Made by a program: the position numbers and the translations under genes. A model generated the notes under the pieces. The model made no database searches. It was not told the origin of the DNA and saw only the letters and a program-made list of their open reading frames with translations. This document shows, piece after piece, positions 5,428 to 17,443 of a stretch of 19,721 nucleotides of DNA (position 1 is its first letter; every line of letters begins with the position of its first letter). Source of the stretch: an uncultured Polyangiaceae bacterium (GTDB lineage: Bacteria; Myxococcota_A; Polyangia; Polyangiales; Houyiibacteriaceae); NCBI GenBank assembly GCA_947258625.1, contig CAMYJN010000004.1, forward strand, positions 1 to 19,721, in the 5' to 3' direction.

Positions 5428-8400
5428 ATGAAGCTGACCGACCTCTTCATCCGCCGCCCCGTCATCGCGATCGTCGTGAACCTCGTGATCGTCATCGCCG
5501 GCCTTCAGGCGATGCGCTCACTCAACGTGCGACAGTATCCGCGCAACGAGAACGCCGCGATTACGGTCACAACCGCCTACGTGGGAGCCAACGCGGAGCT
5601 GGTGCGTGGCTTCATCACGACGCCGCTCGAACGCGCAATTTCGGCGGCCGATGGCATCGACTACATCGCGTCGCAAAGTACGCAGGGCGTTTCGACTATT
5701 CGCGCCAACCTGCGTCTCAACCAGGATTCGATTCGCGCGCTCTCCGAGATCAGCTCGAAGGTCGACCAGGTGCGCGGGGACCTGCCGCCCGAGGCCGAGG
5801 TTCCGATCCTGAACATCGAGTCGATCGAAAGTCAGTTCGCCTCGGCGTACCTGAGCTTTTCGTCGGAGTTCCTCGAGCAGAACGAGATCACGGACTACCT
5901 CGTCCGAATCGTTCAGCCCCGGTTGTCCGCGATTCGAGGGGTGCAGAAGGCGGAAATCCTAGGGGCGCGCACGTTCGCGATGCGGATTTGGCTCGATCCC
6001 GGCAGGCTCGCAGCGCACCGGGTCACCCCCACCGACGTCCAGCGTGCGCTCGCCGCAAACAACTACCTCGCAGCGGTCGGGCAGACCAAGGGCTCGTTGA
6101 TTCGGGTGAACCTGACCGCGAACACCGATCTGGCGTCGGTCGAGGAGTTCAAGAGGCTCGTGATCCGCGAAAAGGACGGGGCCATCATCCGGATCGAGGA
6201 CGTCGGCACCGTGGCGCTTGGGGCGGAGAGCTACGACGAACGGGTCAACTTCACCGGCCAGACCGCGGTCTTCATCGGCGCCTTCGTGCTGCCCAACGCC
6301 AATGCGCTCGATGTCATTCGGGACGTTCGCAAGGAGCTCGAAGACATCAAGAGGGACCTTCCGAGTCAGCTCGAGGCGACGGTCGCCTACGATGCGACCG
6401 CCTACATCGAGGACGCGATCAAAGAAGTCGTGACGACGCTATTGGAAACGCTTTTCATCGTGATCGTCGTCATCTTCTTCTTCCTCGGTTCGTTTCGGTC
6501 CGTCCTCGTCCCCGTGGTCGCGATCCCCGTTTCGCTTATCGGAGCTGTGTTCCTGATGCAGCTCTTCGGGTTCACGCTCAACCTTCTCACCTTGCTCGCC
6601 GTCGTGCTGTCCGTCGGGCTCGTAGTCGACGACGCAATCGTCATGGTCGAGAACGTCGAACGGCACCTTCGAGACGGCATGTCGCGGACCGAGGCCGCGA
6701 TCGTCGGCGCCCGAGAGCTCGTCACACCGATCATCGCGATGACCATCACGCTGGCGGCCGTGTACACGCCCATTGCATTTCAGGGGGGGCTCACCGGTTC
6801 GCTGTTTCGAGAGTTCGCGCTCACGCTCGCCGGGGCCGTGATGATTTCCGGAGTCGTGGCCTTGACCCTCTCACCCGTGATGTCCGCCCGATTCTTGAAC
6901 GAGCACAAGAGCGACCGAGGCCTCAGCGCGCGAATCGATCGGGGCTTCCAACGGCTTCGAACCAGGTACTCGCGTCACCTCGCGTTCGCGCTGGACAACC
7001 GAACCAGCGTCTATATCGTCTGGCTCGGCCTGAGCGCGCTCGGTCTTGTGATGTTCAGCATGTCGGCACGCGAGCTCGCACCCGCCGAGGACCAGGGCGT
7101 GATCTTTGGGATTCTCGAGACGCCGTCGAACGCAACCCTCGACCAGCTGGGTCCCTTCGTCGACGCCATCCATGACGAGGCGATGTCCACCCCCGAAGCA
7201 CAGTTCACCTTTCAGATCACGACGCCAGGCGGCGGGTTTTGGGGCGTAGGCCTCACCCCCTGGGCCCAGCGCGACCGAACGGTCTTCGAGGTCTTGCCCG
7301 AGCTCACCGAGAAGATGACAGCGCTTCCAGGTATCCGCACCTTTCCGGTCTTGCCGCCGGCGCTCCCCGGCGGTGGACAGTTTCCCGTCGAGGTCGTCAT
7401 CGCCTCTACCGCCGAGACGCCGCAGATACTCAGCCTCGTCGAGGAGCTTCAACGGAGGGCCACCGAAAGCGGGATGTTCGCGTTTCCGCCGATCATCGAC
7501 GTCAAGATCGACCAACCGGAATCCGAGATCGTGCTCGACCGAGACGCGGTGGCGGAGCTCGGCTTGGACCTTCGACAGGTCGGCCAGCAGCTGGCCGCGG
7601 CGGCTGGCGGCAACTACGTCAATCGGTTCAGTGTAGCTGGCCGCAGCTACAAGGTGATTCCCCAGCTGGCGCGCAAAGAGAGGCTCACCCCCGAGCAACT
7701 CGAGGACATTTACATCACCGGCCCCACCGGCGAGCTGATTCCGCTCGGCACCTTCGCGACCATCAAAGACAGCGTGACCCCTCGATCGCTCAATCGCTTC
7801 CAGCAGCTCAACGCCGTGACGCTCTCGGGCGTTGCGATTCGACCGCTCGACGAAGCGCTCGGCTTTCTCGAGACGGAGGCCGAGAAGCTTCTGCCCCAGG
7901 GCTACACCATCGACTACACCGGCGAATCACGTCAGCTCCGCAAGGAGGCGAACACCTTCGTTCCCGCCTTCGGCCTTGCGATCCTGTTGATCTTCTTGGT
8001 CCTGGCGGCCCAGTTCAACAGCTTTCGCGATCCCTTCGTGATTCTCGCGGGCTCGGTTCCACTGGCCATGTTTGGCGCGTCGATCTTTACGTTCTTGCAG
8101 ATGCCCGATCCGAACATGAGCTTTTTCACCGACGGCTGGACGACTACGCTGAACGTCTATTCGCAGGTGGGCCTCGTGACCCTGATCGGACTGATCTCGA
8201 AAAACGGCATCCTGATCGTGGAGTTCGCCAACGCGCTTCAGCGCGAGGGCCACAGCAAGCTCGATGCGATTAAGCAAGCCTCGGCTACGCGACTGCGGCC
8301 CATTTTGATGACCACTCTAGCAACCGTGTTTGGGCATTTCCCCCTCACGCTCGTCTCCGGGCCGGGCGCCGAGGCCCGGAACAGCATTGGCCTCGTCCTG

Positions 8401-8490
8401 GTCGGGGGCATGACCATCGGCACGATGTTCACGCTCTTCTTCGTTCCTGCGATCTATCTTTTGGTCTCGAAGTCGCTTCGTTCTGATTGA
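5428..8490 (+). CDS. RND multidrug efflux transporter, HAE1 family inner-membrane permease
   Basis: This is a 1020-residue proton-driven RND pump of the AcrB/MexF/MdtB type. It carries substrates from the periplasm or inner membrane into a tripartite efflux conduit. It begins with the signature FIRRPVIAIVVNL first helix, has two large periplasmic loops (about 30-330 and 550-855) and twelve expected transmembrane helices. The proton-relay residues are present: Asp401 and Asp402 in helix 4 (GLVVDDAIVMVEN) and Lys925 in LISKNGILIVEFAN, the equivalents of AcrB D407, D408 and K940. It lies 21 bases downstream of its adaptor. No outer-membrane channel gene is in the window, so it presumably uses one encoded elsewhere. 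Its last 37 bases overlap, in opposite orientation, the 3' end of atpA, so there is no room for a dedicated terminator after this operon. Confidence 0.96.
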   Translation: MKLTDLFIRRPVIAIVVNLVIVIAGLQAMRSLNVRQYPRNENAAITVTTAYVGANAELVRGFITTPLERAISAADGIDYIASQSTQGVSTIRANLRLNQDSIRALSEISSKVDQVRGDLPPEAEVPILNIESIESQFASAYLSFSSEFLEQNEITDYLVRIVQPRLSAIRGVQKAEILGARTFAMRIWLDPGRLAAHRVTPTDVQRALAANNYLAAVGQTKGSLIRVNLTANTDLASVEEFKRLVIREKDGAIIRIEDVGTVALGAESYDERVNFTGQTAVFIGAFVLPNANALDVIRDVRKELEDIKRDLPSQLEATVAYDATAYIEDAIKEVVTTLLETLFIVIVVIFFFLGSFRSVLVPVVAIPVSLIGAVFLMQLFGFTLNLLTLLAVVLSVGLVVDDAIVMVENVERHLRDGMSRTEAAIVGARELVTPIIAMTITLAAVYTPIAFQGGLTGSLFREFALTLAGAVMISGVVALTLSPVMSARFLNEHKSDRGLSARIDRGFQRLRTRYSRHLAFALDNRTSVYIVWLGLSALGLVMFSMSARELAPAEDQGVIFGILETPSNATLDQLGPFVDAIHDEAMSTPEAQFTFQITTPGGGFWGVGLTPWAQRDRTVFEVLPELTEKMTALPGIRTFPVLPPALPGGGQFPVEVVIASTAETPQILSLVEELQRRATESGMFAFPPIIDVKIDQPESEIVLDRDAVAELGLDLRQVGQQLAAAAGGNYVNRFSVAGRSYKVIPQLARKERLTPEQLEDIYITGPTGELIPLGTFATIKDSVTPRSLNRFQQLNAVTLSGVAIRPLDEALGFLETEAEKLLPQGYTIDYTGESRQLRKEANTFVPAFGLAILLIFLVLAAQFNSFRDPFVILAGSVPLAMFGASIFTFLQMPDPNMSFFTDGWTTTLNVYSQVGLVTLIGLISKNGILIVEFANALQREGHSKLDAIKQASATRLRPILMTTLATVFGHFPLTLVSGPGAEARNSIGLVLVGGMTIGTMFTLFFVPAIYLLVSKSLRSD

Positions 8491-10343
8491 ACGTTCGCTT
8501 CTTGCTCGGCGTCTGCGACCTTCATTCGCTTCGACCCCACGAGGTCCTCGAATTCCCTCAGGTACCGAGCGTATTCAGCGGAATCGTCCGGGCTATAGTT
8601 CAGGTTCTTGTAAAGGCTGTTCAGGCGTGTGAAGAAGTCCTGCGCCGTGTCGCGATCCTCGATGGCGAGGTCCGCCTCGATGACCTCCTTCACCAAGTCG
8701 AAGCTCCTCTTCTGACGAGCGAGAGGCGTGGACGAGTCCACCGGGTCGTAAGCGTCCTGCTGCAGGAAAACCATGTCGAAAAAGACAGATTTCTGCCAAG
8801 TCAGGAAGTCCGTCATCGTGGTCCCTTCCTCGCCTGTGACTTGCATCATCTGGTAGATCTCGTCGCCCCGATGGAGGAGCTCGTGGGCCGCCTTGACGTC
8901 CTCCACCCAGGTTGGGGACAGGTTCTTGGCGTACCAGTCGCTCATCTGGTCGAGGTAGCGCGACCACGAGATTAGCGGATCGATAGCTGGGTAGAAGCGC
9001 TTATATGCACGTTCGGCCGACAGGCCCAAGAAGGTCTTCACCGTGGCGAGAGTTGCTTGGGTCACCGGCTCCTCGAAGTTGCCGCCCGCTGGCGAAACGG
9101 TGCCGATGAGCGTGACGCTACCCGTCTGGCCATCAGGCCCTTGGATGAGCCCGGCCCGTTCGTAGAGGCTCTTGATGGAAGAGTCCAGATAGGCCGGGAA
9201 CGCTTCCTCCCCCGGGATCTCCTCCATACGGCCTGACGTTTCGCGCATGGCCTGGGCCCAACGTGAGGTCGAGTCGGCAATGCACAAAACGTCGTATCCC
9301 ATCTGCCGGTAGTACTCCCCCAGCGTGATCCCGGTGTAGATGGAGGATTCCCGTGCGGCAACGGGCATCGACGATGTGTTGCAGATGATGATCGTGCGAT
9401 CCATGAGCGAGCCCCCGGTCCGGGGGTCCCTCGTCTCCGGGTACTCGGTGATCGTCTCCACGACTTCGCCCGCTCGTTCGCCGCAAGCGATGACGATGAC
9501 GATGTCCACCGCAGAGTGTCGGGCGATCAGACTCTGAAGCACCGTCTTTCCAGAACCGAAGGGCCCCGGGATGCAGGCGGTGCCCCCACGCGCGATCGGG
9601 ATCATCGTGTCGATGATGCGCTGTGTCGTCGTCAGAGGTTCCGTCGGGTAGATGCGCTCGGCCACGCGCTGCCGGAGCATGCGTTCGGGCAACGGGCGGC
9701 GCACCGGCCAGCGCTGAGCCATCGTGAGTGTCCGCTCCGCACCGTTCGGTCGGACGATTCGCGCGACGGGGTCGTTGATCGTCAGGTTGCCCCGGTTGAT
9801 CCAGCTCAGCTCAACCGCCCCGGGCTCGTCGAAGGGCACCATGATCTTGTGTTCGAAGATCCCCTCGGGCGTCGTCCCCAAGATCTGTCCCGGCAGCACG
9901 ATCCTCCCCGTACTGACCGCCGGTGCGAATTCCCAGCGTCTCTCGGTGTCCACGGACTCCGCCTCGATGCCGCGGGGGAGCAGGAAGCCGTGTTCCTTCG
10001 CCAGCAAGGCCAACGGGTTCTGCAGCCCATCATACACCTTCCCTAGAAGACCGGGAGCGAGAGTCACCGACAGCATTTCACCGGTCAACTCGACCTGGTC
10101 CCCGACCTTCACCCCGGAGGTATCCTCGAAGACCTGCATGTCTGCGACTTGATTCTGGACGCGAAGCACCTCCGACTTGAGACGCCGCTCTCCGAGAAGA
10201 ACATAGCCGACCTCGTTCTTCATCACTCGAGTATCGCTGACGTTGATGCTGACCAGACTCTCCTGCACGGCCACGATGGGAGCGCGCCGAGACCCGTGCC
10301 CGCTCGCGTCGCCCCGATCAAGCGAAGAGGTTTTGGTGGTCAC
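8454..10343 (-). CDS. atpA: V/A-type ATPase catalytic subunit A
   Basis: This 629-residue protein is the catalytic nucleotide-binding subunit of the V1/A1 head. The beta-barrel domain starts near residue 22, followed by the 'bulge' insertion typical of A subunits (about 110-200). The Walker A P-loop is GPFGSGKT (260-267, Lys266). The CGERAGE segment (287-293) carries the catalytic Glu, and Walker B is DVLCIAD (351-357). SxSRW and the GRMEEIPGEEAFPAYL stretch (371-386) follow, then the helical C-terminal domain. The GTG start at 10343 is supported by a strong GGAGGT upstream. It gives a 20-residue polar N-terminal extension and overlaps the DUF2764 gene by 26 bases. A is the last gene of the operon rather than sitting directly upstream of B, and its 3' end overlaps the convergent RND gene by 37 bases. 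The C-terminal tail after about residue 612 is polar and may be an extension. Confidence 0.97.
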   Translation of the reverse strand: MTTKTSSLDRGDASGHGSRRAPIVAVQESLVSINVSDTRVMKNEVGYVLLGERRLKSEVLRVQNQVADMQVFEDTSGVKVGDQVELTGEMLSVTLAPGLLGKVYDGLQNPLALLAKEHGFLLPRGIEAESVDTERRWEFAPAVSTGRIVLPGQILGTTPEGIFEHKIMVPFDEPGAVELSWINRGNLTINDPVARIVRPNGAERTLTMAQRWPVRRPLPERMLRQRVAERIYPTEPLTTTQRIIDTMIPIARGGTACIPGPFGSGKTVLQSLIARHSAVDIVIVIACGERAGEVVETITEYPETRDPRTGGSLMDRTIIICNTSSMPVAARESSIYTGITLGEYYRQMGYDVLCIADSTSRWAQAMRETSGRMEEIPGEEAFPAYLDSSIKSLYERAGLIQGPDGQTGSVTLIGTVSPAGGNFEEPVTQATLATVKTFLGLSAERAYKRFYPAIDPLISWSRYLDQMSDWYAKNLSPTWVEDVKAAHELLHRGDEIYQMMQVTGEEGTTMTDFLTWQKSVFFDMVFLQQDAYDPVDSSTPLARQKRSFDLVKEVIEADLAIEDRDTAQDFFTRLNSLYKNLNYSPDDSAEYARYLREFEDLVGSKRMKVADAEQEANVQSERSDFETKR

Positions 10344-10989
10344 TTGTCACCTCCAGTATCAGTTCTTCAAAGCGCTCACGGGCCTGCTCGGCATCGTACG
10401 AAAGCCAGCGGTGGAGGATGTCCCACTTGTAGACGAAGGCGAAGACCTGCTCGAATCCAAATGGATGCGCGTCGGAAATCTGGCCCAGCTTCTTCCAAGA
10501 CTCACCCATCATCAAGGTCTCGAGCCCCAAGGCGTCGCCCCGGTCGAGGAACATCTGCGCCTCGGGGATCCATGGGAAGACGGCGCTTAGCCCAAACTCC
10601 GCGTCCGCCCAGCGAGACTCGATGATGCGCGTGTACGGACCGGTGCCCCATCGCCCCGGTGGCGCGGATTTCCCCTGGCGCCTCAGACGGAGCGCCACCA
10701 TCAAAGTCCGTATGTTCATCCGGAAATCCACGATGTTCAGAAGCTCCGGAGTGCGGTTGTTGGCCACAACTTCCTCGTACATGGCTGCGATCTGCTCGGT
10801 CGTTCGACTCACAGGTTGGCGATGCCAGCTGACCAGACGCTCGGTCCTCATGAGCTCGTCCAAGTCATCCGCGTGCAGGAGGGACAAGCGCTCCTCGAGC
10901 CGCCGGCGGCTCATCGGTAGCAGCTTGGTCTGCCTGAAGTCGGGAAGCGCCGGAAGACTCGCAACGAGCTGATAATAGCGTCGCTTCAC
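10318..10989 (-). CDS. DUF2764 family protein, candidate C-like subunit of the V/A-ATPase
   Basis: This 223-residue protein sits between subunits E and A, where Chlamydia- and Bacteroidetes-type V-ATPase clusters carry a DUF2764 gene. Its opening (RYYQLVASLPAL, residues 3-15) is the typical start of that family, and the rest is predicted to be largely helical, rich in Arg, Glu and Leu. No membrane segment or nucleotide-binding motif is visible. No classical subunit C gene is in the operon. The position suggests it may do C's job as the socket joining the central stalk to the c-ring, but this is inference. The start is a GTG at 10989 that overlaps the stop of subunit E in a GTGA junction, with GAGG upstream. 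The 3' end overlaps atpA by 26 bases. Translation of E, this gene and A should be tightly coupled. Confidence 0.82.
   Translation of the reverse strand: MKRRYYQLVASLPALPDFRQTKLLPMSRRRLEERLSLLHADDLDELMRTERLVSWHRQPVSRTTEQIAAMYEEVVANNRTPELLNIVDFRMNIRTLMVALRLRRQGKSAPPGRWGTGPYTRIIESRWADAEFGLSAVFPWIPEAQMFLDRGDALGLETLMMGESWKKLGQISDAHPFGFEQVFAFVYKWDILHRWLSYDAEQARERFEELILEVTSDHQNLFA
10349..10354 (-). promoter_or_regulatory. Strong Shine-Dalgarno for atpA inside the DUF2764 gene
   Basis: Read on the minus strand this is GGAGGT, 5 bases before the GTG start at 10343. It lies inside the coding sequence of the upstream gene. It decides the start of subunit A and supports independent high-level initiation on the catalytic subunit. 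Confidence 0.75.
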
Positions 10990-11645
10990 TGCCCTGCCTC
11001 GAGCAGAATCTTCCGATAACGAGGCAGAAGCAGCTTGAGCATCATCTCGGACAGAGCCTCGTCGCTCAAGTCGATCTCCAAGTCTTCGCCGACCAAACGA
11101 ATGCGCGCCCCGCCTTGAAACTCGCTCGACGGAATGAGCTCGATGCCCTTGCGTAGCAAATCGGCAGAGAACGATACGGCCGACTGCCGGAGGAATTCGT
11201 CGAGCTCTACGGAGACTTCATCGGCCAATCGCTTTGGAACGAGAATGACAGCTTCCTTGTCTTGGATGAAATCTTCGGCGGCCCTCCCCGCCAAGACCAA
11301 GATCATGTCCCGAAGCACGGCGCCGTCGGTGGTCACATCGGTCACGAGGCGGCGCACGTGCTCTTCGAAAGCGGACATGACGGCCGAGCGGAGCTCCAGG
11401 CCCGTGTCCCGTGCCGCCATGCGCAAGGCCTCGATGCTCGCGGTCTGCTCTCGCTCGGTTGCGGCCTGCGCTTCCTTCTTGATCGCCGCAGCCTTCGCTT
11501 TGGCGTCAGCCACAGTCCGGGCAGCTTTCGCTTTGGCCTCCGCGAGAATTCGATCTGCCTCTGCTCGCGCGGCACGGACTCCCTCGTCACGAATTCGGTC
11601 GATGAGGTCTTTGACTCCCGAGGATTTCAGATCTGGCTCGGTCAT
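10986..11645 (-). CDS. atpE: V/A-type ATPase peripheral-stalk subunit E
   Basis: Subunit E forms the peripheral stalk that holds the catalytic head against rotation. The 219-residue product has a short N-terminal segment, then a long Ala/Lys/Glu-rich coiled coil (about 20-90) of the kind that pairs with a G/H partner. It ends in a mixed alpha/beta C-terminal head domain (about 100-219) with VPKRLADEV and GGARIRL. The ATG at 11645 has a GAGGT six bases upstream that overlaps the stop of subunit K. Only 8 bases separate the two genes. The usual small helical partner (G/H) is not encoded in the operon, so it may be elsewhere, or E may assemble differently. E is fifth in this operon, whereas it is normally first in bacterial V-ATPase clusters of this class. 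Confidence 0.93.
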   Translation of the reverse strand: MTEPDLKSSGVKDLIDRIRDEGVRAARAEADRILAEAKAKAARTVADAKAKAAAIKKEAQAATEREQTASIEALRMAARDTGLELRSAVMSAFEEHVRRLVTDVTTDGAVLRDMILVLAGRAAEDFIQDKEAVILVPKRLADEVSVELDEFLRQSAVSFSADLLRKGIELIPSSEFQGGARIRLVGEDLEIDLSDEALSEMMLKLLLPRYRKILLEAGQ

Positions 11646-11653
11646 GCGTCACC

Positions 11654-12100
11654 TCATTTCGGAATGGCGCCTGCGAGCACCAGAGCGAATACGAAAACGA
11701 AGACCGCAAAGCCCTCGATCACAGCCGCAGGAGCGATGGAGATCCCGAACACTTCAGGCTTCGACTTTGAGGTATTGATGGCGGCAGCACACGCGCTTCC
11801 TTGAGCCATCGCGCTCATGAGCAGAGCCACGCCTGTGAGTGTCCCCAACACGAAAAGGCCCGGCGAGCTTCCCAGCGTCACAGTTCGGTTGAGCGTCAGC
11901 ATCACCACGATGCCGTAGATCGTTTGGGAGGAAGGCATGGCCGCCACCCCGACGAAGCGACCATAGCCGCCCTCCACTTCGAGCATCGCACCTGCGGCGG
12001 CCTGGCCGCCTCGGCCAACACCGATCATGCTGCCGATCGCACCCAAGGTCAGAGGGGCGAAGATCCCCAGCCAGCCCATGGTCAACACCAATGGTTCCAC
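11654..12100 (-). CDS. atpK: V/A-type ATPase proteolipid subunit K (c-ring)
   Basis: This 148-residue membrane protein is the double-hairpin c-ring subunit with four helices, at about residues 10-30, 50-72, 82-108 and 122-143. The essential carboxylate is Glu129 in helix 4 (AAVIEGFAVF). The first hairpin has Gln59 in place of a second carboxylate (MPSSQTIYG, 55-63), and helix 3 carries AQG with Gln100. Compared with Enterococcus hirae NtpK, the residues matching the Na+ ligands L61, T64, Q65, Q110 and E139 are Met55, Ser58, Gln59, Gln100 and Glu129. The ligand chemistry is thus largely kept, since Leu contributes through its backbone. The GTG start at 12100 has a good AAGGAG upstream and follows the stop of subunit I by 3 bases. 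Confidence 0.95.
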   Translation of the reverse strand: MEPLVLTMGWLGIFAPLTLGAIGSMIGVGRGGQAAAGAMLEVEGGYGRFVGVAAMPSSQTIYGIVVMLTLNRTVTLGSSPGLFVLGTLTGVALLMSAMAQGSACAAAINTSKSKPEVFGISIAPAAVIEGFAVFVFVFALVLAGAIPK

Positions 12101-12103
12101 GGA

Positions 12104-13867
12104 TCACGCTCCTTTCTTCTTGAACGGCCGGAAGAGCGGACCCTCTTCCGGAAGTCCCCAGTTGAAGAATTCGATGACATTCAATCGAAGCCCGTGGATC
12201 ACTCCGCTGGCAACGGCAAGTAGCAGGTTCAGGCTGTGTCCGATGACCAAGATGATGAGCGCCGCAAGGAGACCCACGCCCGGAATGGCCTCCCGAGCGC
12301 CGGCGGCCATGTCGTTGAAGGCGATCGCCAGTGATGCGGAGGCGAGGCCCAAGGCGAACAGCCTCAGGTAGCTCAAGACATCTCCAAACGCCGAGATGAT
12401 ACGGGTCAATCCGACCAACCCTTTCCCCAAGCGAGCCAAAGGACGCGCCCCGTATCCCGAAAACGCAAACACGAACACTAGGCCGACGATGGCCACGGAA
12501 ACGGCCGGCGCCTTTAACCAGTCGACTCCTACCTGAACCGCGAGGAACAGCGCGTAACCAGCTAGCACGAACAGGGCCCATCCGAGCGACGGCAAGGCAC
12601 GGGGGCTCCATCCATAGCGCCGGGCGTCCATGAGATTGCCCAGCATGACATGCATCGCTCCGATCGTGATCGACAAGGCCATCATGCCGCTCGCGTCGGT
12701 GATGTCCAAAACCGCCAGCCGTGAGAGGAAGGTGTCCGAGGCCGGCGCCACCCCGAAGAATGAGCCCACCAACACGCCGTACACGACCGTGGTCACCACC
12801 AGGGTAACCAGGACCCAACGCCACCGACGCGTTGCGGCAGAGCGCGACAGCCTCTTCCAGAAATACGCGGTGGCAAGTGCCAAGACCAGCCCGTAGCCAC
12901 CATCCGAAATGATCATCGCAAAGAAGATGGCGAACGAGTACAGGACCACCGACGAAGGGTCCCAGCTGCTGTAGCCGGGGGTCTTGTAGAAGTTGACGAG
13001 GTTCTCGCCGCCTTCGGTGCGCTCGGCGTTGTGAAGCAGCGTAGGCGGCTCGTCGTCGGGGCCGGGACCAGAGACCGCCATTGCGATGCCGTGCTTCGCG
13101 GCGTACCCGCGGAGCGCCTCCACGGCCTCGGTCGGTGCCCATGCCCGCAGCGCGAAGACCGGATTGGAATCGTAACATTGATCGGCGGCGACCTCGCGAG
13201 CGGCTCGGTCCTCGAGGGCCGCCAGGCTGCGTGACAGCAGGCGGCTCCAGCGGGTGAGGCGGATCCGCTCGAGCGATGCGTCCTCGAGCTCCAACTCCAC
13301 GTCCTCTAGCCTTCGCTCGAGCTTCTGCCGCGATACACTGCCGGTTCGAACTCGAGGAGCCGGTACGCCCTGCGGCTCGCGCTCCGACATCACGATCACA
13401 TAGGCGTCACGCCCATCGCGCTTGACCTCTTCCCACGTCAGGTCAGATGCTTCCAGGTCACGCAAGCGGTTCTGCGGCACCACATAAAACCAAAACCGCT
13501 GTCCCCCGAAGCCTTCGTCGGGCGGGAACTCGAAGTCGCCCCAGGGGGCCAGTGCCTCGATGTGGTGCATGAGGCCGTCGCGCTCGAGCTCTAGCTGGTG
13601 CGTATGATCTCGGAGCTCGAGGACGTCCTCTTCGACTCGTACCGCATCGAACTCTGCGGCGTGGGTCACGGGGCGCTGCTTTTGAGGACAACTCTCGAGG
13701 TAGTTCAACGCTTCGCGACTTCGTTTCGAGGGGTCCCCGACCGGCGCGACGTCCTGCGCAAGGGAGACGATCTCGAGAGTCCCGAGCTCCTGCAAGTCCT
13801 CGAGGACCCGTTCCTTCTCAGCGTGGTGGCCCACGAATGTGAGCTTGCTCAGTGGGACTATGGCCAC
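12104..13867 (-). CDS. atpI: V/A-type ATPase membrane stator subunit I
   Basis: Subunit I (homologous to eukaryotic subunit a) provides the two ion half-channels next to the c-ring. The 587-residue product has a cytoplasmic, partly coiled-coil N-terminal domain (about 1-295) starting with MAIVPLSKLTFVG. A C-terminal membrane domain with about seven or eight helices follows (from about 305). The essential arginine is Arg502 in the LSYLRLFALGLAS helix. The downstream GHSLNLLLAVASGVIHGLRLNVIEFFNW segment (split here for reading: GHSLNLLLA at about 543-551, VIHGLRLN at about 556-563) is the family's last-helix signature. It is slightly shorter than many homologues (about 600-660). The GTG start at 13867 has an AAGGT element upstream and overlaps the end of subunit D by 10 bases, showing translational coupling. 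Confidence 0.96.
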   Translation of the reverse strand: MAIVPLSKLTFVGHHAEKERVLEDLQELGTLEIVSLAQDVAPVGDPSKRSREALNYLESCPQKQRPVTHAAEFDAVRVEEDVLELRDHTHQLELERDGLMHHIEALAPWGDFEFPPDEGFGGQRFWFYVVPQNRLRDLEASDLTWEEVKRDGRDAYVIVMSEREPQGVPAPRVRTGSVSRQKLERRLEDVELELEDASLERIRLTRWSRLLSRSLAALEDRAAREVAADQCYDSNPVFALRAWAPTEAVEALRGYAAKHGIAMAVSGPGPDDEPPTLLHNAERTEGGENLVNFYKTPGYSSWDPSSVVLYSFAIFFAMIISDGGYGLVLALATAYFWKRLSRSAATRRWRWVLVTLVVTTVVYGVLVGSFFGVAPASDTFLSRLAVLDITDASGMMALSITIGAMHVMLGNLMDARRYGWSPRALPSLGWALFVLAGYALFLAVQVGVDWLKAPAVSVAIVGLVFVFAFSGYGARPLARLGKGLVGLTRIISAFGDVLSYLRLFALGLASASLAIAFNDMAAGAREAIPGVGLLAALIILVIGHSLNLLLAVASGVIHGLRLNVIEFFNWGLPEEGPLFRPFKKKGA

Positions 13868-14490
13868 GCTGCTACCTTCTGCTCTTCGAGACCCGGATCC
13901 GGCGCTTGCCGGGACTTCGCCAGCTTGGCCTGAACCACGGCCGCCCTGGCCATGTCGCCCAACCAGATCTGGATGCGCTCGATGTTGTTCCGAGTCCTCG
14001 GGATGAGAATCTTCTCGAACAAGTTCACTCGCTGCGTGATGCGCCGCTCCGCACGCGCAAGCACACGGACCCTCTGCGCGGCGACTTGGATGCGCGTTCG
14101 CGCCTCGGCCGCATCGCCGAGTCGGTCGGCCAGCGCGTCAACCCACGCGGGTTTTGCAAGCGGTGAGTATTCGGCCACCTGACACTCGACCTCCTTCAGC
14201 ACGGGGAGCCTCACCCCAACCACGTTTTCTTGTCCGAGGTCGAAGGCCGTCATCTTGACCAGACCTTTCAGATCGATCTCCGGGTTCGCCAGCATGGGCA
14301 GCTCCGCCCCCACCCGCGCCTCCAGACGCTCCACATCAGCCCGTGTCTCTGCGTACTCCCTGCGAGCTTTCTCTAGTTCGATGGTCAGCTGCCTGCGCTT
14401 GAGCTCGAGCGAAGGAAGGAGCTTCTCGTAGAGCTTGAGCTTGGTCAGCTCCTGCTGCAGTGCTGCCTTACTGAGCTTCAGCCGGGCCAT
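13858..14490 (-). CDS. atpD: V/A-type ATPase central-stalk subunit D
   Basis: Subunit D is the rotor shaft inside the A3B3 head, functionally like the gamma subunit of F-type enzymes. The 210-residue protein has the expected two long antiparallel helices: an N-terminal one (about 5-65, beginning with LKLSKAALQQELTKLK) and a C-terminal one (about 125-200) with the conserved RRITQRVNLFEKILIP and NIERIQIWLGD segments. A short alpha/beta insert lies between them. The ATG at 14490 comes 3 bases after the stop of subunit B. The 3' end overlaps subunit I by 10 bases. The rotor's second small subunit (F) is not encoded in this operon. Confidence 0.95.
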   Translation of the reverse strand: MARLKLSKAALQQELTKLKLYEKLLPSLELKRRQLTIELEKARREYAETRADVERLEARVGAELPMLANPEIDLKGLVKMTAFDLGQENVVGVRLPVLKEVECQVAEYSPLAKPAWVDALADRLGDAAEARTRIQVAAQRVRVLARAERRITQRVNLFEKILIPRTRNNIERIQIWLGDMARAAVVQAKLAKSRQAPDPGLEEQKVAAWP

Positions 14491-14493
14491 GGC

Positions 14494-15837
14494 TCAGCCG
14501 GCCGCTCCCGCGTCTTCGTTCCCCAAGTCCGGGAAGTAACGATCGACGAGGTCTTGCTTCATGAGAAGCTCGTGCGGCTCGAAGCACTCGGCCAGCGTGT
14601 GCCAACTCAGATCGAGCGCCTGCAACAGGGGCAACGAGACGTTGACGTCCATGAACCGGCGCCGAAACAGCTCCCCGAACTTGAGGAGCTTCATGTCGAA
14701 GTCCGATAGCTCGAACGCCATGGCCTGCTTTTGCTCTGCCTCCCGCGCAGCGGCGTAGAAGCGGACCATGGTGTTCATGATCTGACCGTGATCCTCCCGC
14801 GTGGCCTTCCCCACGACATGCTGTTTTAGGCGCGACAGCGAGCCGAACGGGTCGATGACCCGATCATGCAAATAGAACTGGCCCTCGGTGATGTACCCGG
14901 TGTTGTCCGGCACCGGATGGGTCACGTCGTTGCCCGGCATGGTGGTGACCGTGAGGATGGTGACCGAGCCCGCCCCTTTGAAGTCGCACGCTTTCTCGTA
15001 CCGCCGGGCGAGCTGTGTATAAAGGTCGCCCAAGTAGCCCCTGGTCGCCGGGATGCGGGCCTGAGACACGCCGATCTCCTTCATGGCATCGGCATAAGCC
15101 GTCATATCCGTCATCAGCACCAGGACGCGTTTGGACTGCTCCATGGCGAATCGCTCGGCAACCGCCAAAGCCATGTCCGGAACCAACAGCCGTTCGATGA
15201 TCGGATCGGAAGCCAAGTTCACGTACATGACAGTGCGGTGGGAGACCCCGTTTTCCTCGAAGGCGGTCTTGAAGAAGTGGAAATCGTCGAAGATCAGTCC
15301 CAAGCCCGCGAAGACCACGATGTCGGCGTCTGCCTGGAAGCCAATGCGCGCCAAAAGGGCATTGTAGGGCTCACCTGCCACCGAGAAGATCGGGATCTTT
15401 TGACTCTCCACCAAGCTGTTGAAGAGATCGATCATAGGGACTTCGGTCTCGATCATCTTCGATGGCATCACGCGCATCATGGGGTTCACGGTGGGGCCCG
15501 CCACCGGGATGGTCTCCTCTGCATCGAGCGGCGGCTTGCCGTCGATCACCTCGCCCGAGCCTCGGAAGATTCGACCTAAAATGTGGTTGGAGTAGACCAC
15601 CTGCTGGGGATGTCCGAGGAAACGAACTCGGGCATCGGTCGAGATACCCTTGCCGCCCGAGAACACCTGGAGGCTGGCGATGTCTTGCTTCAGCTCGACG
15701 ACACTGGCGCTGGACACCTCGCCACCGAGGTTCTCCACCACCGCAAGGTCCCCGAGAGCTACGCCTCTAGCGCGTACTCGGATGACGTCGCCAATGATGT
15801 CTAAAACGCTGGTGTGCCGGACGAGAGTGTCGAGCAT
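14494..15837 (-). CDS. atpB: V/A-type ATPase regulatory subunit B
   Basis: Subunit B is the non-catalytic nucleotide-site subunit that alternates with A in the head. The product is about 447 residues. It has the N-terminal barrel, the PMIDLFNSLVESQKIPIFS segment, SVAGEPYNALLARI in place of a Walker A loop (normal for B), VLVLMTDMTAYADAMKEI, and the highly conserved TMPGNDVTHPVPDNTGYITEG stretch (cited here as two parts: TMPGNDVTHP, then VPDNTGYITEG). I chose the ATG at 15837 over an in-frame ATG at 15882. A GAGGT lies five bases upstream of 15837, nothing comparable precedes 15882, and homologues of the Chlamydia class begin at this point. It is the first gene of the operon, 144 bases downstream of the aldehyde dehydrogenase stop. 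Confidence 0.95.
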   Translation of the reverse strand: MLDTLVRHTSVLDIIGDVIRVRARGVALGDLAVVENLGGEVSSASVVELKQDIASLQVFSGGKGISTDARVRFLGHPQQVVYSNHILGRIFRGSGEVIDGKPPLDAEETIPVAGPTVNPMMRVMPSKMIETEVPMIDLFNSLVESQKIPIFSVAGEPYNALLARIGFQADADIVVFAGLGLIFDDFHFFKTAFEENGVSHRTVMYVNLASDPIIERLLVPDMALAVAERFAMEQSKRVLVLMTDMTAYADAMKEIGVSQARIPATRGYLGDLYTQLARRYEKACDFKGAGSVTILTVTTMPGNDVTHPVPDNTGYITEGQFYLHDRVIDPFGSLSRLKQHVVGKATREDHGQIMNTMVRFYAAAREAEQKQAMAFELSDFDMKLLKFGELFRRRFMDVNVSLPLLQALDLSWHTLAECFEPHELLMKQDLVDRYFPDLGNEDAGAAG

Positions 15838-15847: not shown

Positions 15848-15981
15848 GTAAGGTAGGAAGGCTTGGGAGGAGTTGGGGCCATCTAAGCAGATGGGCGCCG
15901 CAGGGCAAGACGCATTCGAAGAACTTGGAGCATCCGACCGAGCCTGCCCGAAGCCACGACGCGTTTGGGAGCCTCGATGGC
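15848..15981 (-). promoter_or_regulatory. Leader region of the V-ATPase operon with a weak promoter candidate
   Basis: This gap lies between the aldehyde dehydrogenase stop and the first ATPase gene, and is the only sizeable non-coding stretch from which the operon could be driven. On the minus strand TTGCCC (about 15906-15911) is followed by TAGATG (about 15878-15883) at roughly 17-base or slightly larger spacing. This is a poor sigma-70 match that would put the transcript start between the two possible atpB start codons. No convincing hairpin-plus-T-run terminator for the upstream gene is visible, so read-through from the dehydrogenase is possible. Confidence 0.3.
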
Positions 15982-17430
15982 TCAGTCCAGCGCGACCGTG
16001 ACGCTCTTGAGCTCGGTCCAGTCCTCGAGCCCGTGCCGGCTTCCTTCTCTGCCGAGGCCGCTCTCCTTCCAACCGCCGAAGGGGACCTCGGCGGTACTGA
16101 CGAGCCCGGTGTTGACGCCGACCATGCCGGCCTCGAGCGCCTCGTATCCGCGAACGAGGCGACTGAAGTCGCGTCCGTAGAGGTATGCGATCAAACCCGC
16201 CGGCGTCCCGTTGGCCAGCGCCATCCCTTCCGCGTCGCTCCCGAAACGCGTGAGCGGCGCCACCGGTCCGAACACCTCCTCCCGGCTAATTCGCATGTCT
16301 GCGCTGACATCTTCGAGCAAGGTCGGCGTGAAGAACGTGCCCTCGGCTTCGGCTTGGCCGCCCCCGACCGTCGCGCGCGCACCGGCGTCGCCGGCGTCCG
16401 CGACGAGGCCCTGAACTTTCTCCAAGGCTCGGCGATCGATGAGTGGCCCGATTTGCACGCCGGGCTCGAGGCCTGGGCCGACCCGCAGTGCCACGATCGC
16501 CTCCGCGAGGGCGTCTCGAAAGCGCTCGTAGATGCCGTCCTGAACCAGGATGCGATTGGCGGCGACGCAGGTCTGACCCGCGTTTCGAAACTTTGCGATG
16601 AGGCAACCAGCCACCGCGGCATCCACATCCGCGTCGTCGAGCACCACGAAAGGCGCGTTTCCGCCGAGCTCTAGGCTCACCCGCTTCACCGTCGAGGCCG
16701 ACGCTTCGAGGAGCTTCTTTCCGACAGCGGTCGAACCGGTGAAGCTGAGCCTGCGCACCCTGGCGTCCGCGATCAGTGCGGCACCAAGGTCGGCAGCGTC
16801 GTCACGGTCCCCGGTCAAGACGCTGAACGCGCCGGCGGGGATGCCCGCTTGTTCCGCGATGGCTGCAAGGGCCAGTGCAGAGAGTGGGGTCGCCTCAGCC
16901 GGCTTGAGAATCACCGGGCAGCCCGCCGCGAGCGCGGGTCCGAGCTTTCTGGTGATCATCGCGCAGGGAAAGTTCCAGGGTGTGATCGCGACCCCGACTC
17001 CCACAGGCTGCCGGAGGACGAAGACGCGCCCGTGGGCCGATGGTGCAGGGATGGTCTCCCCATAGATTCGTCGAGCCTCCTCCGCGAACCAGGTCAAAAA
17101 CGATGCGGCGTAGCGGATTTCAGCGCGTGCCTCGGCAAGGGGTTTGCCCTGCTCACGGGTGAGCAACGTAGCCAGCTCTTCTTCACGGCGCTCCATACTG
17201 CACGCCATGCGGTGAAGAGGCGCGGCCCGGTCGATCGCGGATAGGCTCCGCCATTGCTCGAAAACGCCGGACGCGGCATCGACCGCGGCGCGCGCTTCTT
17301 CGGAGCCACAGCGAGGCACGCGGCCGACGCGCTCTCCCGTTGCAGGATCCAACACGTCCAGATGCGTCCCCGTCTCGACCCACTCGCCCGCGATGTAGGC
17401 GCGCCTGCGGATCAGCGCGACCTCGCTCAT
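15982..17430 (-). CDS. gabD: NAD(P)-dependent succinate-semialdehyde dehydrogenase (GabD-like)
   Basis: This aldehyde dehydrogenase oxidises succinate semialdehyde (or a similar short aldehyde acid) to succinate with NAD(P)+. The 482 residues equal the length of E. coli GabD. The catalytic positions coincide in number: Asn153 in ITPWNFP, Lys176 in LKPAEATP, Glu254 in LELGGNAP and the nucleophile Cys288 in FRNAGQTC. The C-terminal PFGGWKESGLGREG segment is also typical. The residue two after the nucleophile is Ala290, where E. coli and human SSADH have a second Cys, so no redox disulfide can form there. The ATG at 17430 was chosen because a perfect GGAGGT lies eight bases upstream. An earlier in-frame GTG at 17439 overlaps that site. 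It diverges from the haloalkane dehalogenase gene, which raises the possibility that its true substrate is an aldehyde from dehalogenated compounds. Confidence 0.92.
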   Translation of the reverse strand: MSEVALIRRRAYIAGEWVETGTHLDVLDPATGERVGRVPRCGSEEARAAVDAASGVFEQWRSLSAIDRAAPLHRMACSMERREEELATLLTREQGKPLAEARAEIRYAASFLTWFAEEARRIYGETIPAPSAHGRVFVLRQPVGVGVAITPWNFPCAMITRKLGPALAAGCPVILKPAEATPLSALALAAIAEQAGIPAGAFSVLTGDRDDAADLGAALIADARVRRLSFTGSTAVGKKLLEASASTVKRVSLELGGNAPFVVLDDADVDAAVAGCLIAKFRNAGQTCVAANRILVQDGIYERFRDALAEAIVALRVGPGLEPGVQIGPLIDRRALEKVQGLVADAGDAGARATVGGGQAEAEGTFFTPTLLEDVSADMRISREEVFGPVAPLTRFGSDAEGMALANGTPAGLIAYLYGRDFSRLVRGYEALEAGMVGVNTGLVSTAEVPFGGWKESGLGREGSRHGLEDWTELKSVTVALD

Positions 17431-17437
17431 TCGGCTC

Positions 17438-17443
17438 ACCTCC
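17438..17443 (-). promoter_or_regulatory. Perfect Shine-Dalgarno for the gabD-like gene
   Basis: Read on the minus strand this is GGAGGT, correctly spaced for the ATG at 17430. It overlaps the alternative GTG at 17439, which can therefore be excluded as a start. Confidence 0.75.

Follow-up and report, generated by a model that had tools for sequence, protein, structure and literature searches.

Here we describe a V/A-type rotary ATPase operon whose genes stand in the order B-D-I-K-E-DUF2764-A, found on a contig of an uncultured Polyangiaceae bacterium of the Myxococcota (CAMYJN010000004.1, assembly GCA_947258625.1; the window is the whole stretch analysed, 19,721 nucleotides). The operon is a complete V/A-type ATPase of seven genes. 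Its B-first order is real and old, not a one-off, and marks a whole branch of such operons in distant bacteria. We consider it likely that this complete but minimal enzyme serves as an accessory ATP-driven pump, that the order arose once and that the clade carrying it spread laterally.

The operon and its junctions

Open reading frames together with Pfam and NCBIfam models place seven tightly packed genes on the minus strand of the window, listed here in the order of transcription; the DUF2764 gene is also called X.

14494..15837 (alternative start 15882), minus strand: subunit B, non-catalytic head, first gene; NCBIfam NF002555, E 8.5e-202, above cut-off
13858..14490, minus strand: subunit D, central rotor shaft; PF01813, E 1.7e-34; NF002565, 190.2 bits, barely over the cut-off of 189
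12104..13867, minus strand: subunit I, membrane stator, a-like; PF01496, E 5.9e-13; NF004431, E 3.4e-66, below cut-off
11654..12100, minus strand: subunit K, rotor-ring proteolipid, NtpK-like; PF00137; NF007200, above cut-off; alignment to 2bl2
11646..11653, minus strand: K-E junction of 8 bases, with the ribosome-binding site of E over the stop of K
10986..11645, minus strand: subunit E, peripheral stalk; NCBIfam NF002424 (V-type subunit E), E 2.5e-24, below the curated cut-off
10318..10989, minus strand: DUF2764 protein (X), possibly a diverged subunit C coupling rotor ring and shaft; PF10962
8454..10343 (GTG at 10343), minus strand: subunit A, catalytic, last gene; NF003220, E 6e-226, above cut-off

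All seven frames are open. The core genes of a V/A-type rotary ATPase (A, B, D, I and K) are present together, and the translations carry the P-loop GPFGSGKT in A and none in B. Subunit E had no match in the Pfam scan, and the Pfam match of X is weak (E 8.4e-7) while exceeding the gathering score; in a scan listing E values up to 10, DUF2764 was matched in 51 of 52 aligned members, with a best value of 1.9e-14. No recognisable C, F or G was found among the open reading frames of the window with models built from few seeds, the search for F and G covering the window. The NF002555 kind of B and the DUF2764 gene after E are those of the chlamydial/Bacteroides type, from whose order, E-X-A-B-D-I-K, the window departs.

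B and D are separated by 3 bases, I and K by 3, and K and E by 8, while D overlaps I by 10 bases, E overlaps X by 4, and X overlaps A by 26 if A starts at the GTG at 10343. As the sequence of the K-E junction, AAATGAGGTGACGCATG, shows, the ribosome-binding site of E overlaps the stop codon of K. For B, the ATG at 15837, with GAGG in front, looks a better start than the ATG at 15882. An earlier note made from this DNA had described seven minus-strand genes in this order, with the operon ending at 15837, the ribosome-binding site of E over the stop of K, and an arrangement that is an exact rotation of the chlamydial one; all of this holds, and the E-X-A-B-D-I-K order was read in Bacteroides, Planctomycetota and Chlamydiota.

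The same note took the operon to be intact rather than an assembly error, which agrees with what we found. The contig of the window comes from a fragmented assembly (750 contigs, 80% complete), and one relative does carry a false split: in the Gemmatimonadota "chromosome" CP070792 (L091/G482) the apparent separation of A from B is a scaffolding artefact, since the beginning of A contains a run of N and a second run follows shortly after K. A misassembled or broken copy is nevertheless an exceedingly improbable explanation for the window, because contigs assembled independently from other genomes of the genus show its junctions again, as do complete records. Among the independent contigs of the genus, L111 holds the whole operon, L187 holds B-D-I-K and part of E, L034 the remaining E, X and A, and L135 part of I, K-E-X and part of A. 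Both ends recur as well, the B end with the aldehyde dehydrogenase gene in L380 and the A end adjoining the same RND pump gene in L134 (about 120 bases between matches, against 33 in the window). Labrenzia sp. THAF82 has the order on its complete chromosome (L112), as do two complete plasmids, from Qingshengfaniella alkalisoli (L114) and Tateyamaria omphalii (L115, whose annotation splits X in two), and the operons of L035 and L111 are free of N. No second cluster restoring the usual order, which would have spoken against the earlier note, was found in the genome, 80% complete. As a separate observation, CP070792 (L091, L216, L217), labelled a chromosome, consists of contigs joined by 100-N gaps.

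Distribution and spread of the B-first order

A scan of genome contigs with A gave 280 confirmed relatives, and among the best 80, which were kept, the full B-D-I-K-E-X-A order was read in 69; the other 11 are partial and consistent with it, and none contradicts it. Ten of the partial loci start at most 240 bases from a contig end, and the remaining one is the artefact L091. B-first loci include isolates and, by record title, come from Myxococcota, Pseudomonadota, Cyanobacteriota, Planctomycetota, Nitrospirota, Chlamydiota, Thermodesulfobacteriota, Gemmatimonadota, Auribacterota and others.

Lineage surveys, counting matches over the cut-off of the B model NF002555, place this order beside the A-B arrangement. 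The window's own class yielded 25 matches in 24 of 240 genomes, of which 5 were B-first, 16 A-B (one truncated behind B) and 4 A-B-E-(X)-D. Its own phylum had matches in 13 of 282 genomes (3 B-first, 10 A-B), four genomes being shared with the class set. The B-first state of one genus member, G007, rests on a separate E-X-A contig, as the contig with B ends a few bases before that gene. Planctomycetota had matches in 13 of 199 genomes (9 A-B, 4 B-first) and Gammaproteobacteria in 9 of 274 (8 B-first, 1 A-B). NF002555 was matched in 88 of 92 Chlamydiota genomes, where the reading covered 30 listed loci and the two of genome G475, of 89 matches; every one of the 30 is A-B, and G475 pairs an A-B operon with a B-first one. 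The rotated order in the window is correctly observed and ordinary within a widespread clade, and the earlier note's view of it as a special case gives way to a survey in which B-first is the norm of its clade, an outcome that the note itself had named as refuting. Two further arrangements were encountered: two complete B-D-I-K-E-X-A operons (L047, L215) occur together in G478, a genome of the Nitrospirales, and the class relatives L173, L174, L175 and L176 have the non-rotational order A-B-E-X-D-I-K (X not detected in L176).

In three concatenated A and B trees the sampled B-first operons form one clade, comprising 29 of 67 rows (support 100), 16 of 37 (100/99) and 17 of 50 (100). The 67-row tree includes 29 of the 44 B-first rows having both subunits; the 37-row tree, without Bacteroides, and the 50-row tree were hand-picked. 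The root is formed by V/A-ATPases with other subunit sets, mostly I-first, including the D-first L118 and some partial clusters. Separate FastTree trees of A and B, from a set without L038, L171, L173 and L178 (missing A or B), each recover a single B-first clade (0.916, 0.979). Across 80 loci the pairwise distances in A and in B have a correlation of 0.87, and for all 21 subunit pairs the value lies at 0.75-0.94, which suggests that the genes of the operon move together; the correlation and the single clade in both FastTree trees bear out the shared history of A and B, a check set beforehand.

Phyla are mixed on branches within the B-first clade of all three concatenated trees, and the nearest rows to the window outside its own genus are Gemmatimonadota and Gammaproteobacteria records. 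Since the B-first rows form one clade that mixes phyla, the rotation most likely occurred once, in the ancestor of the clade, and was followed by lateral spread. From the same trees we infer that the mixing would be the work of lateral transfer, partly on plasmids, and the Myxococcota lineage of the window most likely obtained or kept the operon as an exchangeable cassette. Two considerations weigh against this reading. Record titles put the clade in at least eight phyla, and titles of metagenome bins may be wrong, which would lower that count; the other concerns the site of the operon, whose neighbouring genes are the following.

5428..8490, plus strand: RND efflux pump (PF00873, E 1.4e-244); 3' end at one edge of the operon-free site in two sister genomes
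15982..17439, minus strand: aldehyde dehydrogenase (PF00171, E 1.2e-162); 3' end at the opposite edge of that site

The pump gene is convergent with A, their 3' ends overlapping by 37 bases; the dehydrogenase gene lies upstream of B on the same strand, 99 bases from 15882 and 144 from 15837. Scans for promoters and terminators gave no signal over shuffle level. The operon occurs in 4 of the 19 genomes of the genus, at more than one site: besides the window's genome, three of the remaining 18 have A-subunit matches of at least 88%, namely G007, G011 and G005, where the match is split into two pieces. At the DNA level the window resembles L111, a locus from its own genus, and L035 over the operon and nowhere else. 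G005 has the operon beside the same two neighbours as the window, and G010 and G012 lack it at that site, where the window flanks continue to 8469 and from 15980 with 14 bases between them. In these two genomes only 49 and 38 bases of the dehydrogenase end remain, and the pump gene runs into the remnant. We rejected these empty sites as proof of insertion: a shortened pump gene fused to the end of the dehydrogenase gene makes deletion at least as likely as insertion, which is the second consideration. The 3' end of the pump gene accordingly differs between sites with and without the operon (window 8454-8490; G010 and G012, L377 and L378).

The genus also has a different V/A-ATPase, its A about 40% identical, in 16 of the 19 genomes (all but the window's, G008 and G017). 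Ten of these clusters read from I to D and are I-first, and the other six are partial. The three sister genomes with the B-first operon also hold such a separate I-first enzyme (A about 40% identical).

No fixed functional neighbour emerged. The commonest flanking gene clusters occur in 10 and 6 of 88 loci, with side and strand mixed; the member read from the former is an ABC transporter, and the latter holds the window's RND pump. A 4.4-kb block with 2-oxoacid:ferredoxin oxidoreductase genes stands before the operon in G011 and after it in G007; the stretches fetched around this block in nine other genus members, some of which end close by, hold no operon sequence alongside it. Such oxidoreductase genes lie beside the B-first operon in three genomes, before B, after A, and upstream on the opposite strand (L111:1-4400; L384:2771-7144; L179). 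Both plasmids have genes of the arginine deiminase pathway in the vicinity: in L114 the gene for arginine deiminase itself precedes B by about 3.3 kb, and in L115 a carbamate kinase gene overlaps B. Another family lies near the operon in five loci (L059, L067, L086, L090, L095), its member read in L090 being a polyphosphate kinase 2 (PF03976).

Origin of the rotation and the identity of DUF2764

One of the closest known systems is the chlamydial/Bacteroides V-ATPase (E-DUF2764-A-B-D-I-K), which shares the same seven families, a B over the NF002555 cut-off and no detected F or G, and which is sister or parent of the B-first operons in the A and B trees. It differs in being cut between K and E, where the window is cut between A and B, and in forming a separate clade. 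We read this order in Bacteroides (L117, L336), Planctomycetota and Chlamydiota, where all ten clusters fetched are E-(X)-A-B-D-I-K with X detected in four. Clusters without C, F and G have been described for Borrelia-like and chlamydial enzymes in the available text of PMC2936114.

The archaeal V/A-ATPase order is I-K-E-C-F-A-B-D. Enterococcus-type operons, read here in Enterococcus and Pusillibacter, have this order too; they would share the same ring order if DUF2764 is C, have the K-E junction in common with the window, and encode a K like that of the window, an NtpK. They differ in having C (AC39), F and G, in an A about 40% identical to the window's and in the cut point.

We infer how the rotation came about from junctions and trees. 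The earlier note had regarded the K-E junction as new and E-X-A-B-D-I-K as the parent order, and neither claim is supported. Since the K-E junction is present in operons of the I-K-E-C-F-A-B-D kind, which roots the trees, it may be the older state, with the A|B cut as the later change. On the parent the trees conflict. The careful 37-row tree, which has no Bacteroides-type rows, pairs the E-first with the B-first operons as sister groups (95/90), whereas in the quick 50-row tree, which has such rows, the E-first operons are paraphyletic (93); forcing them together, with nine of the 50 rows dropped as long or redundant, costs 1.26 log units, and the approximately unbiased test gives p-AU 0.47. 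With that value and the conflict between them, the trees favour neither order as the parent.

Under the note's scheme, E-X-A-B-D-I-K was duplicated in tandem and lost its first E-X-A and last B-D-I-K, creating a new K-E junction. This yields an exact rotation and would fit the paraphyly of the E-first operons in the quick tree, yet we regard it as unlikely: K-E already exists in the I-K-E-C-F-A-B-D operons, the two orders are sisters in the careful tree, and p-AU is 0.47. In addition, repeated letters occur in 7 of 80 loci, all as small or split pieces inside the operon, and no second A, E or X precedes B and no second B-D-I-K follows A in the short flanks of the 80 loci. A block move or a circular intermediate would give the same result as duplication with reciprocal loss.

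Alternatively, the B-first order may have come directly from an I-K-E-C-A-B-D ancestor, by moving B-D ahead of I (or cutting the ring there) with the old K-E junction kept, while the E-first order formed separately by moving I-K behind D. This route needs one block move per order and agrees with the sister relation in the careful tree, with outgroup operons that retain K-E and with DUF2764 as the probable subunit C. It would, however, require the D-I junction common to both DUF2764 lineages to be created twice, no I-first DUF2764 operon is among the operons read, and the trees favour neither direction (p-AU 0.47); we hold it to be possible, at somewhat less than an even chance.

Profile comparisons suggest that DUF2764 is probably a diverged subunit C (AC39). 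The profile of the window X matches that of DUF2764 at P 1.8e-23, and DUF2764 matches subunit C at P 3e-5 with a probability of 73% over most of both profiles. Two reversed controls each gave 0.18, and six other subunits gave 0.36 or worse with the same DUF2764 profile. A Bacteroides DUF2764 protein (L117:1072-1914) reaches E 4.4e-6 with the subunit C model PF01992, barely under the Pfam cut-off, and two of five alignment members match; PF01992 also stands in the precomputed annotation of six homologues among 120 listed, and is weakly matched by 3 of 52 members of the rotated-clade alignment (best E 0.009). Several results count against the identification. The link from X to C passes through other DUF2764 proteins; compared directly, the window X gives a non-significant P of 0.09 with C, no better than the 0.059 with D or the 0.067 with I obtained alongside it, and PF01992 finds nothing in the whole window genome, X included, at 80% completeness.

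If DUF2764 is C, the I-first, E-first, B-first and Rubrobacter D-first operons would be a single circle opened at four places, with a different adjacency absent from each; the last is on a plasmid of Rubrobacter radiotolerans (L118), whose order D-(G)-I-K-E-C-F-A-B is another rotation of the ring. The idea that every rearrangement is a rotation is ruled out by A-B-E-X-D-I-K (L173-L175; X not detected in L176). When one block among seven genes is moved at random, the result is a rotation in 6 of 56 cases, so one rotation by itself is weak evidence for a ring mechanism. We advance only tentatively, and as a rather unlikely proposal, that V/A-ATPase operons evolve as a gene ring, which is cut by way of tandem or circular intermediates when the operons are transferred laterally; the B-first clade would then be a mobile, partly plasmid-borne secondary pump and the V/A counterpart of the N-ATPase, rotated on becoming transferable and with DUF2764 as its hidden C.

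Predicted function and biological meaning

The window K aligns to the sodium ring protein NtpK (2bl2, E 9e-8). The sodium ligands of Enterococcus hirae NtpK, which we take to be L61, T64, Q65, Q110 and E139, correspond in the window to M, S, Q, Q and E (S58, Q59, Q100, E129 for the last four), a likeness in sequence. Given a K of the NtpK kind with one Ser, two Gln and one Glu at the ligand positions, the ion is probably sodium. The S, Q, Q, E set recurs in the K of 50 of 79 relatives, and T, Q, Q, E in one more. The enzyme would consist of an A3B3 head, the D shaft, DUF2764 (probably the diverged C) between shaft and ring, the K ring, the I stator and the E stalk; ATP hydrolysis in A would turn D and the K ring against I, and the pump would move sodium. 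A K of this kind has one carboxylate at its ion site, which suits pumping. As judged from these features, the enzyme is most likely an accessory ATP-driven ion pump.

Some observations weigh against this picture. Ser in place of the Thr of NtpK keeps the hydroxyl and is still a difference, and 28 of the 79 relatives have a sodium ligand changed (the first Gln to Met in 16 and to Gly in 7, with five other patterns once each), so the type of ion is not uniform across relatives. No F or G gene was detected beside the operon, a weak absence given models from few seeds, and a role as ATP synthase may also fit the sequence. A synthase or proton pump in place of an accessory sodium pump would be in line with the loss of the full ligand set in those 28 relatives and with the ability of V/A-ATPases to run both ways (PMC12342949, available text). 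We think it improbable, as the window K keeps S, Q, Q, E and its single ion-site carboxylate would, on general grounds, favour pumping; the accessory sodium pump is the function we prefer.

Among described systems, the V/A-ATPase of lineage IV Nitrospirales comes near. The available text of PMC12342949 notes two V/A-ATPase gene orders in Nitrospirales, those of lineage IV being unlike the others in order and sequence group, with a different donor suggested; that text does not spell the order out or call it a rotation. Our Nitrospirales locus L047 is B-D-I-K-E-X-A, although its record name, NPIRA04, is absent from the main text there. The literature covered, which included few subscription papers, contained no rotated V/A-ATPase order or operon rotation, with PMC12342949 the nearest, and the operon-related passages of PMC2359735, PMC10656485 and PMC5709465 hold nothing on V/A-ATPase rotation. 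The N-ATPase offers a parallel: it is a laterally transferred F-type pump whose operon starts with beta-epsilon (PMC11738941, available text), an order obtained by rotating the one usual for F-type operons (PMC5709465) apart from two extra genes and a merged or missing delta. Both are extra rotary ATPases, laterally spread, with a rotated operon. They differ in that the N-ATPase has F-type subunits; the window operon lacks that set (F-type alpha/beta, c and a, beta-epsilon first), its best models being V-type A and B.

The interest of the B-first operon lies in its apparently single rotation, in the spread of that rotation, and in a ring relation with DUF2764 as the probable subunit C. The cut point of the operon is a simple structural mark of an apparently monophyletic, laterally spreading branch of V/A-ATPases, and it ties together operon layouts that are usually treated as unrelated. 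If DUF2764 is indeed C, the "missing" coupling subunit of the chlamydial, Bacteroides and Borrelia-like V-ATPases would be found. With B first and A last for subunits needed at 3:3, the clade would offer a natural test of whether gene order matters for assembly, and likewise of circular intermediates in operon transfer.

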